DNA of 64,000 nucleotides from Corallium rubrum (taxonomy: Eukaryota; Cnidaria; Anthozoa; Scleralcyonacea; Coralliidae). The notes beneath the pieces were generated by a model, which did not search any database, was not told the origin of the DNA, and saw only the letters and a program-made list of their open reading frames with translations. The first letter of the stretch is position 1, and each line of letters opens with the position of its first letter. Below are positions 7,324-42,460 of this stretch, one piece after another. A program made the translations under genes and the position numbers. Location: assembly GCA_964035015.1 (NCBI GenBank), contig CAXIUP010000090.1, forward strand, positions 425,501 through 489,500, written 5' to 3'.

Positions 7324-8235
7324 TATGGGCGGCCGTGACCACCAAAAATACTACGGTAGTGAAACAGAATAGCCTATTGCAAAACGACTCAGCAAGAACA
7401 CAAATGACTCATCTTAAATTCAAATTACTTAACGTTTCGTAGTGGAATGACTGATGCTAAACAGAAATTATTGAACACAATTAGAAATGACATAACAGCA
7501 CACGACCAAATGACTCAATTAGTTGTAAAATGACTCAACTAGTTGTGAAATGACTCAACTAGTTATCAAGTGACTCAACTAGTTGAGAAATGACTCAACT
7601 AGTTATCAAATGACTTAACTAGTTATCAAATGACTCAACTAGTTGTGAAATGACTCAAGTAGTTGAGAAATGACTAGACTAGTTATCAAATGACTTAACT
7701 AGTTATCAAATGACTCAACTAGTTGTCAAATGACTTAACTAGTTATCAAATGACTCAACTAGTTATCAAATGACTCAACTATATATCAAATGACTCAACT
7801 AGTTATCAAATGACTCAACTAGTTGTGAAATGACTCAAATAGTTGTGAAATCACTCAACTAGTTATCAAATGACTCAACTAGTTGTGAAATGACGCGACT
7901 AATTGTAAAATGACTCAACTAGTTGTGAAATGACTCGACTAATTGTAAAATGACTCCATTACTTGTCAAATGACTTGACCTGTTGCGGATCACGACAGCT
8001 GGCCGAACGTAATTTGTATCGGTTTAATGATTAACGGTGGAACGTATGGAGCTGTCACGTCAATCAATGTGTCATCAAACGACTCAACCAAAATTGAAAC
8101 GACTCAACCAAAATTGAAACGACTCAAAAGTGAAAGGACTTAAGAAAGCAGCAGGGGGCTTCAAAATCATCTGTAAACTGCCATGCAACTTCCGACCACG
8201 AGGGATTTTCCACCAAAATTTTCAGTCAAATCAAG
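7324..8235 (+). repeat. Left terminal inverted arm of the integrase/HECT transposon
   Basis: Matches the reverse complement of 41500-42460, including unique stretches such as GGTTTAATGATTAACGGTGG (8031) and CCGACCACGAGGGATTTTCC (8194). The arm contains the minisatellite array at 7495-7990. Confidence 0.85.
7495..7990. repeat. 20-bp minisatellite TGACTCAACTAGTTATCAAA, left arm
   Basis: About 24 copies. Most hold TGACTCA (a perfect AP-1/bZIP consensus) and ACTAGT. Variants alternate ATCAAA and GTGAAA at the unit end. The inverse array is at 41750-42275. Subterminal arrays like this usually bind the transposase; the bZIP reading is only sequence coincidence until tested. Confidence 0.9.
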
Positions 8236-8345
8236 GTTATTTTTAATGCTCGTCGACAATAGCTCTTCTAAGATCAATAGATAAAGCTTTTCCAATCTCA
8301 TAGGACCTTCCGCGTTTGCTTCATAATTATTATCTCATACTTGGG
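8236..8345 (-). repeat. 110-bp block also present inverted at 24860-24975
   Basis: The reverse complement (GAGATAATAATTATGAA, then GCAAACGCGGAAGGTCCTA and CTATTGATCTTAGAAGAGCT) matches 24867-24975 with a few indels. In the 24.9-kb copy it encodes a short ORF resembling a transposase helix-turn-helix start. Here that frame is broken. In the right arm the corresponding position lacks this block, so it was inserted or moved in the left arm. Confidence 0.75.
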
Positions 8346-9206
8346 CCGTTGTAGACTGTGCGCTGAGTATATATGACAATATAAACCATATATATGCGCT
8401 GCTCGCAGTTATATTTAAGAATTTGATATTCTTTGACCATTATCAAGATCATGTATATAATTCACTAATCATATATATTCTCATTTGCGACAGATATGAA
8501 TAACTATACAATGGAGCTACGTAATGCAGTAGAACAAATTATCATGATTCTACAACAGTCGTCAAGGAAAGAGGATCATGAATTGTGTGTGACAAGACTA
8601 GAAATCCTATGCGATAATGCATTAGCTAATGATGATATCCCAATTCAAATTGTTGATATTTTGAATCAAGCTAAAAATTTTCTTCAAAATAACATTCACA
8701 CAGAACGAGAATTTAATTCATATGAAGCGCCTTTAGAAAGACAACAAAGACGAGGAAGACCTAGGTTTGTGATTTCAGAGGAATAATTGCGGTTTTTTAC
8801 AGGTAAATATATATTATAGATCCATTATTCACATACTTCTTGAATTCATTAAAAATTCATTTATAAAAAAGCAAAGGGAACTTATGACCCATGTCCGATC
8901 TGTAGAGTATGTGGTATTCTGACATAAGAAGCCTCATGAAAATATGTTTTTCTTAGAGAATGGATTTACGCAAAACGATATGGCGTTGATGTTGGGTGTC
9001 AGTAAGCGTACTGTGGAGAATCGTCTGGCAGAGTACAACATGACAAATCGACAACGGTTTAGTGACATCGATGACCAGTCACTTGATGCATACGTTCACC
9101 GTATCATTGCACATTTTCCTAGATCAGGTTTATAAGTTTTTCATTGTGTGTGTAGTACGTGTCTTTTAATATTTAATATTTAGTTTAAACTCTATGTGTC
9201 TATAGT

Positions 9207-10335
9207 GTCTGTCTGTCTGTCTGTCTGTCTGTCTGTCTGTCTGTCTGTCTGTCTGTCTGTCTGTCTGTCTGTCTGTCTGTCTGTCTGTCTGTCTGTCTGT
9301 CTGTCTGTCTGTCTGTCTGTCTGTCTGTCTGTCTGTCTGTCTGTCTGTCTGTCTGTCTGTCTGTCTGTCTGTCTGTCTGTCTGTCTGTCTGTCTGTCTGT
9401 CTGTCTGTCTGTCTGTCTGTCTGTCTGTCTGTCTGTCTGTCTGTCTGTCTGTCTGTCTGTCTGTCTGTCTGTCTGTCTGTCTGTCTGTCTGTCTGTCTGT
9501 CTGTCTGTCTGTCTGTCTGTCTGTCTGTCTGTCTGTCTGTCTGTCTGTCTGTCTGTCTGTCTGTCTGTCTGTCTGTCTGTCTGTCTGTCTGTCTGTCTGT
9601 CTGTCTGTCTGTCTGTCTGTCTGTCTGTCTGTCTGTCTGTCTGTCTGTCTGTCCGTCCATCCGTCCGTCCATCCATCCGTCTGTTTGTCTGTCTGTCTGT
9701 CTGTCTGTCTGTCTGTCTGTCTGTCTGTCTGTCTGTCTGTCTGTCTGTCTGTCTGTCTGTCTGTTGGTCTGTCGGTCTGTCGGTCTGTCGGTTGGTCAGT
9801 CGGTCGGTCGGTCGGTCGGATGGGTGGATGAGTGGATGGGTGGATGAGTGGATGGGTGTATGGGTCGGTGGATGAGTGGATGGGTGTATGGGTGTATGGT
9901 ATACACCCATCCACTCATCCACCCACCCATACACCCATCCACTCATCCACCCATCCACTCATCCACCCATCCGACCGACCGACCGACCGACTGACCAACC
10001 GACAGACCGACAGACCGACAGACCAACAGACAGACAGACAGACAGACAGACAGACAGACAGACAGACAGACAGACAGACAGACAGACAGACAGACAGACA
10101 GACAGACAGACAGACAGACAGACAGACAGACAGACAGACAGACAGACAGACAGACAGACAGACAGACAGACAGACAAACAGACGGATGGATGGACGGACG
10201 GACGGGTGGGTGGGTGGATGGGTGGATGGATGGGTGGATGGGTGGATGGATGGATGGATGGATGGGTGGATGGGTGGATGGCTGGATGGGTGGATGGATG
10301 GATGGGTGGATGGGTGGATGGATGGATGGATTTGA
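9207..10335. repeat. Tetranucleotide array forming a giant inverted palindrome
   Basis: (CTGT)n runs from 9207 to about 9770 with a short CCGT/CCAT interruption. It passes through CGGT and GGAT/GGGT variants to a centre near 9899 (ATGGGTGTAT GGT ATACACCCAT). It then runs back as the reverse complement to (ACAG)n at 10020-10174 and GGAT/GGGT to 10335. The arms mirror each other variant by variant over at least 250 bp. The ORFs read across it are pure repeat translation. It lies in the second intron of the integrase gene. Confidence 0.95.
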
Positions 10336-40249: not shown

Positions 40250-40754
40250 CTGCATAATTATAGATATTACTGATAAGTAACTTGTTAAATACCCAAGCGG
40301 GGTATTGAGTTTACTTATGTTCAAATCATGAAATCGAGGTTAGCCTGTCTGGTTGTTATAAATTCAGACTCTCGAACTTTGCTGTCTGAATTTTGTCTCC
40401 AACTATGTATGCTTGCTCGGTCAACAACTTTCAGTTGGTTTTGCAGTGTTTTGGACATTTTTTGCAGTTTCCTCTTGTTACGCTGATCAAAGATGATTCT
40501 GAAATATAAATCAACTAAGGATCAACCAACCTTAATTTCATGATTTCGAACAAAGTCGAATCCAGTACCCTGCCTGCATGTGTTTCGCATACTGTGATAC
40601 AAAATTAAAATCGTCATTTGTTGTACTTATTATATACATAATTTCCAGTGGGAAATTTTGTGCTATACTCCAAGTTAATGAACTATATACATGTATACAC
40701 CACTACTACCAGTCAAGTACTGTAGAGATCACAATTCACTCTAGAGTTCACAAT
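40250..40754 (+). other. 3' flank of the transposase gene
   Basis: No further coding exon recognised. The sequence grades into the subterminal array near 40740. Confidence 0.4.
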
Positions 40755-41210
40755 TCATTCAACCAAATATTAGTTGGTTAGTTTAACCAATTTATAGTAG
40801 TTATAACCAACTTAGTTTAGTTACAACTAGCATTATCGAATTTTAATTGGTCAATTTAACCAATTTGTATTGGTTGTAACCAATTTGGTTTGGTTTCTTA
40901 CAATCAGTTTTACCTAATATTAATTAGTTAATTCAATCAATTCATATTGGTTATAACCAATTCAGTTTGGTTACTAAACTGATTACCAGTCTGACCAAAT
41001 AATAACTGGTTAATTTAACTCATTTGTATTGGTTATAACCAATTCAATTTGGTCATTTTAACCAATACCCAGTTAAAACTTTAGTCTTACCAAAAAATAA
41101 TTGGTTAACATAACCAATTTATTTTGCTTACAACCAATTTATTTTGTTATTATAACCTCTTGAAATTGGTCGCAACCAATTAAAAAGGTTATTTCAACCA
41201 ATCAGTTTTT
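40755..41210. repeat. Right subterminal GGTT/AACC array of EnSpm-1
   Basis: Copies of TTGGTTATAACCAA and TTGGTTAATTCAA, mostly inverted pairs, mirroring 25033-25610. It runs to the terminus at 41216. Confidence 0.8.
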
Positions 41211-41219
41211 ACAGTGTAT

Positions 41220-42460
41220 CTGCAACTAGCAATATACAAAACAATATAAAATTATTTAATATAACTTCTAGCAGCGCATATTATGTTTTATATTGTCATA
41301 TATACTCAGCGCACAGTCTATTTCAAACAGAGAAGGTAAGATCTTGTATATAAATGTATCAATCAAATGACAGTTGTTAAAATACAAGCATAAATTTCAG
41401 CTACAGAAGCGTTAAAGTCAATCTACTTACCTTAGCTGTATACGGCTTCAAGAAACAGAATCGAAGAGACAGAGAAATAGAGCAGAATACGACGCGTTCG
41501 TTTGGTGAAAATTTTCTGCCTGGAAAATCCCTCGTGGTCGGAAGTTGCATGACAGTTTACAGATGATTTTGAAGTCCCCTGCTGCTTTCTTAAGTCGTTT
41601 CACTTTTAGTTGAGTCGTTTCAATTTTGGTTGAGTCGTTTGATGACACATTGATTGACGTGACAGCTCCATACGTTCCACCGTTAATCATTAAACCGATA
41701 TAAATTACGTTCGGCCACTTCCGCGCAAGCTGTCGTGATCCGCAACAGGTCAAGTCATTTGACAAGTAATGGAGTCATTTTACAATTAGTCGAGTCATTT
41801 CACAACTAGTTGAGTCATTTTACAATTAGTCGCGTCATTTCACAACTAGTTGAGTCATTTGATAACTAGTTGAGTCTTTTGATAAGTAGTTGAGTCATTT
41901 CACAACTAGTTGAGTCATTTGATAACTAGTTGAGTCATTTGATAACTAGTTGAGTCATTTGATAACTAGTTGATTCATTTGATAACTAGTTAAGTCATTT
42001 CACAACTAGTTGAGTCATTTGATAAGTAGTTAAGTCATTTGATAACTAGTCTAGTCATTTCTCAACTAGTTAAGTCAACTGATAACTAGTCTAGTCATTT
42101 CTCAACTAGTTGAGTCATTTCACAACTAGTCGAGTCATTTGATAACTAGTTAAGTCATTTGATAACTAGTTGAGTCATTTCTCAACTAATTGAGTCATTT
42201 GATAACTAGTTGAGTCATTTCACAACTAGTTGAGTCATTTCACAACTAGTTGAGTCATTTTACAACTGAGTTATTTGGTCGTGTGCTGTTATGTCATTTC
42301 TAATTGTGTTGAATAATTTCTGTTTAGCATGAGTCATTCCACTACGAAACGTTAACTAATTTGAATTTAAGATGAGTCATTTGTGTTCTTGCTGAGTCGT
42401 TTTGCAATAGGCTATTCTGTTTCACTACCGTAGTATTTTTGGTGGTAACGGCCGCCCATA
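41220..42460 (-). repeat. Right terminal inverted arm of the integrase/HECT transposon
   Basis: Reverse complement of the left arm. Shared are CTTCTAGCAGCGCATATTAT, ATTGTCATATATACTCAGCG, the minisatellite and the terminus. It has a unique stretch, about 41330-41490, where the left arm carries the 110-bp block instead. EnSpm-1 ends four bases to the left. Confidence 0.8.
41750..42275. repeat. 20-bp minisatellite, right arm
   Basis: About 25 copies of TTTGATAACTAGTTGAGTCA, the reverse complement of the left-arm unit. Variant order differs from the left array, so the two arrays have been reshuffled since the insertion or were never identical. Confidence 0.9.

Follow-up and report, generated by a model that had tools for sequence, protein, structure and literature searches.

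A two-gene, IS3EU-like transposon of Corallium rubrum combines a DDE integrase with a convergent HECT-type gene

Known accessory genes of DNA transposons mostly encode nucleases, helicases, proteases, or chromatin or DNA modifiers. In Kolobok, which belongs to a different superfamily, lineages likewise combine a transposase with a lineage-specific accessory protein, these accessories being nucleases, a helicase or KolX, and the available text names no E3 ligase (PMC9587614). Closer to the locus described here is IS3EU, which is characterized by TA..TA ends, usually 6-bp target duplications and a DDE transposase related to IS3/IS481 with a long N-terminal region (PMC10045372). Among fungal IS3EU elements, the TET/JBP-bearing ones with an alpha-kinase place an accessory enzyme gene opposite to the transposase, according to the accessible text (PMC12730594). 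HECT is unmentioned in the available portions of both IS3EU papers, a literature search found no paper joining IS3EU and HECT, and a search for HECT with transposons gave nothing relevant among the matches listed. HECT is also absent from the main text of PMC4255032.

The window analysed here is a stretch of 64,000 nucleotides from contig CAXIUP010000090.1 of Corallium rubrum. A transposon extends from position 7324 to 42460 and is bounded by 0.9-kb inverted arms (left, 7324–8224, + strand; right, 41506–42460, − strand). Arms of more than 0.9 kb had been proposed in a first-pass annotation of the window, and this was borne out, the two matching in inverted orientation at 87.6% over 975 alignment columns. 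Each arm contains a 20-bp minisatellite (7507–7975 and 41753–42272). The termini of the element are TATGGGCGGCCGT and ACGGCCGCCCATA, and both are directly abutted on their outer side by a perfect 6-bp target duplication, CATATG (7318–7323 and 42461–42466), which had been absent from the first account.

The coding pieces of the integrase lie on the + strand between 8496 and 15455. An N-terminal piece (8496–8783) with 43–64% identity to seven other copies is followed by an HTH-like piece (8956–9129) with 81–90% identity to other copies, by a piece containing the first Asp in the motif WHMDGNH (13869–14045, matched in sister copies), by the core exon with the second Asp and the Glu separated by 36 residues (14697–14999), and by two C-terminal pieces (14999–15199 and 15297–15455). 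The core exon matches Pfam rva_4 with 145.9 bits, and the integrase is of the rva_4 (IS3/IS481-like) type. The integrase assignment stands, while the helix-turn-helix exon ascribed to it is represented by a piece that reaches Pfam HTH models below cut-off only. IS3EU transposases are described as lacking an HHCC zinc motif ahead of the core; general scans of the window and of the sister copy C239 gave no match to a zinc model, and the distant integrase L041 displays a zinc-ribbon-like stretch just below cut-off. The integrase frame of the window copy shifts near 15.0 kb, directly 3' of the core exon, and one intron harbors a nested non-LTR retroelement (10745–13655, − strand; RVT_1 69 bits, Exo_endo_phos 37.2 bits).

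Compared with IS3EU as set out in the accessible text of PMC10045372, the window element shares the TA..TA ends, the 6-bp duplications, the IS3/IS481-related DDE transposase and the long N-terminal region, and differs in possessing a HECT gene, of which that text makes no mention. Termini of the form TATGGG..CCCATA are found in the window element and seven sister copies, and the TA..TA ends recur in a distant element on C39 (TATGAAGG); at the level of the fungal consensus TAYGG..CCRTA (PMC12730594, as far as available), the coral element reads TATGG..CCATA. Duplications of 6 bp accompany all eight copies and the C39 element (GATATT), and the transposase type is given by Pfam rva_4. The integrase of the divergent locus L030 was hit by the NCBIfam models for IS481 (2e-15) and IS3 (5.6e-8), both below curated cut-offs. 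The element fits the IS3EU features tested, namely ends, duplication and transposase type.

Facing the integrase, the HECT gene occupies 16272–22431 on the − strand. Its convergent orientation agrees with the first description; the 11 exons given there correspond to 11 matched query pieces, two of which (17748–17894 and 17899–18141) are one exon cut by a frameshift. An extra short exon near 21326–21391 is possible, splice sites in this copy being read by eye only. The N-terminal region comprises a first matched piece (22150–22431) and a domain piece (20795–20977), both matched across copies, and a second domain piece (20109–20384) with the pattern C-x2-C-x11-H-x3-C, which is also present in sister copies and which we take to be UBZ-like. 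No Pfam model matched this finger above cut-off in the window exons, and in copy C239 zf_C2HC_14 remained below cut-off at E 0.085; of the UBZ-like finger proposed earlier, the spacing pattern alone is retained. Three linker pieces within 18232–19960 (19793–19960, 18499–18579 and 18232–18288) are a reading of the window, with no match in other copies. The N-lobe exon (17748–18141) carries the landmark GGxRREF and the frameshift near 17.9 kb, and is followed by two pieces matched across copies (17407–17517 and 17061–17237) and by the C-lobe exon (16272–16523) with the catalytic-Cys motif TSNTCINRL, the Cys codon being placed at 16377–16379 by count. The joined C-lobe exons reach 28.3 bits with Pfam HECT (cut-off 23.9). 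The HECT assignment with an intact Cys motif is confirmed in this respect, but the gene around the motif is frameshifted and its domain shorter than canonical. Due to the frameshifts near 17.9 kb and 15.0 kb, neither gene of the window copy is intact.

Across the genome, 22 inward-facing pairs of the arm motif occur. Among the matches listed, eight of these enclose the integrase, and all eight also enclose HECT in convergent orientation. The first-pass annotation had described one transposon holding both genes and had reasoned that arm pairs enclosing mostly the integrase alone would point to trapped host sequence; the counts speak against such trapping and strongly support a single transposon. 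The eight copies are flanked by 6-bp duplications, five perfect and three with one mismatch. Two overlapping elements in place of one were considered and rejected, since in every one of these copies integrase and HECT lie together inside the arms and the duplication, as they also do in a second subfamily. Copies C239 and C299 are nearly identical in both genes and yet carry different 6-bp duplications, which indicates that integrase and HECT moved together. Both also share an in-frame TGA in HECT; the HECT gene of C82a has stops and C1 retains a HECT piece of 31 residues, so that a copy that has moved may lack a functional HECT gene in cis. Nested elements aside, no other complete gene had been reported between the arms. 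The best support for this comes from the compact copy C239 (14,172 bp), where the longest stop-to-stop stretch outside both genes measures 122 codons; in the window, unclassified coding fragments remain at 22.7–41.5 kb.

The pairing of integrase and HECT recurs in distant subfamilies of the Corallium rubrum genome. The second subfamily, at C39:2339748-2349203, is arranged in the same way, with the integrase and HECT frames both open and the ends noted above on both sides. Among the matches listed, 57 of 128 HECT clusters have an integrase no more than 5 kb away, 55 of these 57 being convergent, and eight shifted controls gave 0–5. Seen from the integrase side, HECT matches within 5 kb are fewer: 15 of 150 and 44 of 150 listed integrases have one. 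A convergent, sequence-divergent HECT-like gene adjoins five of six sampled integrases that had no listed HECT (about 6.2 kb at L034 revealed none), and a convergent rva_4 gene accompanies both sampled HECTs that had no listed integrase. Two scans of viral_contigs, in which the L030 HECT and integrase with their open frames served as queries, revealed no relative, and the divergent L036 HECT had no match in the PDB. HECT codons are under strong purifying selection (pN 0.15–0.30 at pS 0.72–0.86), like those of the integrase, while in recent copy pairs no selection is visible, on few changes. Distances between HECT genes correlate with those between integrases (r 0.58; 23 of 720 permutations).

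It is virtually certain that the anatomy is that of a two-gene transposon, consisting of a DDE integrase and a convergent HECT-type gene with its own N-terminal region. A host HECT gene trapped once between the arms and spread as a passenger could account for the many damaged copies and for the 14 of 22 arm pairs with neither gene inside, among the matches listed. It is highly improbable, however, given that the pairing recurs in distant subfamilies whose ends differ, that its orientation is almost uniformly convergent, and that purifying selection and correlated divergence are seen, and it was set aside on co-occurrence, orientation, duplications and codon change. Since many transposons of this genome have the integrase tail-to-tail with a HECT-like gene, HECT looks like a standing transposon part. 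The earlier term cargo says too little: that HECT is conserved, keeps a fixed orientation and is deeply rooted suggests that it is the second core gene of the element.

Pfam HECT scores exceed the cut-off in C239 (27.2 bits), L030 (39.3), L036 (25.3), L038 (39.0) and L040 (30.1), as in the window; L037 falls below it at 20.8 bits, and the frames of L035 and L039 gave no Pfam HECT match. In the canonical E3 ligases AREL1 and E6AP, the N-lobe GG-x-[RK]EF landmark and the catalytic-Cys motif can be aligned with the transposon HECT, but the N-terminal part is different. From GG to Cys, two transposon subfamilies have 196–197 residues, compared with 286 in AREL1 and about 275 in E6AP (hand count), so that the transposon domain is about 80–90 residues shorter before the catalytic Cys. 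Judged from this spacing alone, the E2-binding part might be missing, and the protein might have lost transfer and act as a binding or structural partner of ubiquitin or DNA. This is unlikely, because the Cys motif is kept in all six family-1 copies having that region, a Cys occupies the C-lobe position by eye in the divergent genes L030, L035, L036, L037, L038 and L040, and the spacing in L037 is about 253. The putative HECT protein is more likely to work through ubiquitin transfer.

Taken as a whole, an IS3EU-like two-gene transposon with HECT as an accessory factor in trans, its target left unchosen, is very probably the correct explanation. The integrase would cut at the TA..TA ends and join with a 6-bp stagger, and the HECT protein would act in trans by ubiquitylating one of two targets. 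The first is the integrase or transposition complex, which would be turned over or freed from the ends as a result; the second is a host factor by which the transposon is repressed or repaired. Roles in transposase stability or host DNA repair had been suggested in the first-pass annotation. That the element escapes control by removing or altering host silencing or repair factors is quite possible, though short of an even chance: TET/JBP genes on fungal transposons including IS3EU have been proposed to evade methylation-based silencing (available text of PMC12730594), albeit with a kinase and a dioxygenase in fungi instead of a ligase-like gene, and a role in trans suits copies that moved even though their HECT is damaged. 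A transposase-linked role would, however, account equally well for the close association with a single type of transposase, and since HECT accompanies the integrase from one subfamily to the next, the integrase complex is the slightly likelier target. More tentatively, a lineage of HECT ligases may belong to the ancestral core of animal IS3EU-type transposons, in the slot held by the alpha-kinase in fungal IS3EU. The superfamily plan would then pair a DDE transposase with a protein-modifying enzyme in opposite orientation; some of these enzymes would no longer have the standard E2 dock and would bring in E2 or ubiquitin via their own N-terminal region.

That a ubiquitin-ligase-like gene has stayed next to a transposase through deep divergence suggests a part for ubiquitylation in transposon movement or survival, and the pairs with open integrase and HECT frames make such a role directly testable. 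Moreover, HECT-like genes predicted in genomes of this kind may belong to transposons, and scoring them as expansions of host ligases should be avoided.

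In the window (C108:425501–489500), the element spans positions 7324–42460 and is bounded by two inverted arms, 901 and 955 bases long, which share 87.6% identity and terminate in TATGGGCGGCCGT and its complement. On either side it is flanked by CATATG, a perfect 6-bp duplication. Both arms harbor the same 20-bp minisatellite (7507–7975 and 41753–42272), which a motif count also suggests in the sister copies C239 and C299 and not in five other copies. The integrase gene lies on the plus strand and is split into N-terminal, HTH-like, first-Asp, core-exon and C-terminal pieces. 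Its core exon, with 36 residues between Asp and Glu, scores 145.9 bits against Pfam rva_4. The HECT gene is located on the minus strand, tail to tail with the integrase and 1.3 kb from its core exon; the joined C-lobe exons score 28.3 bits against Pfam HECT (cut-off 23.9). Both genes are broken in the window copy: a HECT frameshift lies within the N-lobe exon, and the integrase frame shifts directly 3' of the core exon.

Besides the two genes, the window element contains a nested non-LTR retroelement in an integrase intron (10745–13655; RVT_1 69 bits, Exo_endo_phos 37.2 bits) and, at 22.7–41.5 kb, coding fragments of no assigned class. The decayed fragments on both strands at 25827–38678 are perhaps a further nested two-gene element; four of them yielded no Pfam match above cut-off. 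In the compact sister C239 (14,172 bp), the longest stop-to-stop stretch besides integrase and HECT comprises 122 codons, and the basic element therefore appears to consist of two genes, in agreement with the earlier proposal that no other complete gene is enclosed. Outside the element, a GDSL-like lipase frame (42712–43212, minus strand; Lipase_GDSL_2 52.1 bits) adjoins its right end, and a frame of DUF6589, a family without assigned function, is found at 61464–62279 (minus strand; 62.7 bits). A reverse transcriptase frame at 3543–6613 (minus strand; RVT_1 32.8 bits at 4438–5301) adjoins a frame that by eye is tyrosine-recombinase-like, perhaps a DIRS/Ngaro-like element.

Across the 474 Mb genome (312 contigs), a 13-base arm motif occurs 79 times, and not once when read backwards, giving 22 adjacent inward pairs of less than 60 kb. 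Co-occurrence of integrase and HECT between the arms, which the first-pass annotation had asked about, was borne out: eight pairs enclose a listed integrase, all eight hold HECT matches as well, and among the matches listed no pair encloses just one of the two genes. With window exons as queries, all eight show HECT and integrase in convergent orientation (the C215 element being covered except for 10 kb). A ninth family integrase, on C74, is accompanied by a single arm, and its convergent HECT match lies at a distance of 18 kb. Among the matches listed, neither gene is found in the other 14 pairs (0.8–47 kb), the short ones presumably being non-autonomous derivatives; two large pairs of this kind are C29:11335–58068 (46.7 kb) and C23:11612447–11626359 (13.9 kb). 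Duplications of 6 bp flank all eight gene-bearing pairs, perfect in five (window, C82a, C299, C270, C215) and with one mismatch in three (C239, C1, C82b). Since the integrase and HECT genes of C239 are almost the same as those of C299 and the duplications of these copies differ, integrase and HECT have recently moved together.

A second, distant subfamily is represented by the 9,456-bp element C39:2339748–2349203, with ends TATGAAGGCCCGTTCTGGTC and GATATT duplicated on both sides. Here the two genes are convergent, each as one open stop-to-stop frame: the integrase frame of 574 codons scores 254.3 bits against rva_4, and the HECT frame of 613 codons 39.3 bits. A copy on C82 is 99.6% identical across 8.3 kb, with one end hidden by an N run. 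The 20-base end of this subfamily occurs 14 times and forms four inward pairs; among the matches listed, HECT is present in all four and integrase in two.

Genome-wide, two integrase searches (150 of 803 and 150 of 1351 candidates scored) gave 238 distinct places, and two HECT queries (134 and 114 matches) merged into 128 clusters. Among the integrases listed, 57 of the 128 clusters lie within 5 kb of one, 55 convergent, one tandem and one divergent; shifting the integrases by 50–400 kb (eight shifts) left 0–5 clusters nearby. Viewed in reverse, only 15/150 and 44/150 listed integrases have a convergent HECT match, and the remaining integrases were therefore sampled. Among three hand-picked loci, the L036 integrase is convergent with a HECT gene scoring 25.3 bits, and L035 has a HECT-like gene detected by tblastn (1.8e-9 to the C39 HECT), with a Cys C-lobe by eye and no Pfam match; at L034, HECT was not found within the roughly 6.2 kb searched. 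Convergent with the L034 integrase, the one sampled without visible HECT, is a PHD-finger-like frame (4486–4920, minus strand; 21.2 of 24 bits, just below the Pfam cut-off). Twelve integrases were drawn at random from the 182 without a match to the first HECT query, and all three examined have a convergent HECT-like gene: that of L038 scores 39.0 bits; that of L037 falls short of the cut-off with 20.8 bits and is 59% identical to its L036 counterpart; and that of L039 gave tblastn matches only (1.4e-11 and 1.1e-6). Because L038 and L039, as well as L037 and L036, are close relatives, the five HECT-positive loci do not amount to five independent lineages. The N-terminal frame of the L038 HECT gene (2006–3589, plus strand) includes a stretch that is UBA/CUE-like by eye, without Pfam support. 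Conversely, two HECT clusters hand-picked from the 71 without a listed integrase, L040 and L041, are each accompanied by an rva_4 gene in convergent orientation (101 and 39 bits), at about 5 kb and 2.4 kb, respectively. The L041 integrase (1961–3430, plus strand) is a distant rva_4 member with a zinc-ribbon-like N-terminus (24.5 of 25 bits, just below cut-off).

For HECT exons of non-recent family-1 pairs, pN is 0.15–0.30 and pS 0.72–0.86; with synonymous sites close to saturated, just two pairs yielded a dN/dS value (0.065 and 0.075). Integrase dN/dS is 0.058–0.118 in computable pairs. Recent pairs give 0.28–2.4 on few changes, with no detectable selection. Across six copies, HECT distances are correlated with integrase distances (r 0.58, a value reached in 23 of 720 permutations of the labels). 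All six copies in which the region is present retain the Cys motif. An in-frame TGA common to C239 and C299, stops in C82a and a HECT piece of only 31 residues in C1 count against a strict need for HECT in cis.

Two landmarks, GG-x-[RK]EF in the N-lobe and the Cys motif, align between the transposon HECT and both AREL1 and E6AP. These are 196–197 residues apart in two of the transposon subfamilies and about 253 in L037, in contrast to 286 in AREL1 and about 275 (hand count) in E6AP. Judged from the spacing alone, a missing E2-binding subdomain would explain the difference. The transposon protein is likely to transfer ubiquitin.

The C39 transposase matches the NCBIfam models of IS481 (2e-15) and IS3 (5.6e-8), both below curated cut-offs. 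PMC10045372 gives TA..TA ends, duplications of 6 bp and a transposase related to IS481/IS3 as features of IS3EU, and the element shares all three. Fungal IS3EU elements, according to PMC12730594, end in TAYGG..CCRTA and carry TET/JBP and alpha-kinase genes, with the kinase in reverse orientation to the transposase gene; this gives a precedent for pairing an IS3EU transposase with an oppositely oriented protein-modifying enzyme. HECT and ubiquitin do not occur in PMC12730594. No literature naming both IS3EU and HECT was found in a search outside Repbase Reports and most subscription journals, and titles and abstract openings on HECT with transposons held nothing on point; an earlier description of a HECT-bearing element possibly went unnoticed. 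That the HECT gene is part of the transposon is well supported; the two-gene element is genuine, recurs in this genome and is probably a new form within a known superfamily.
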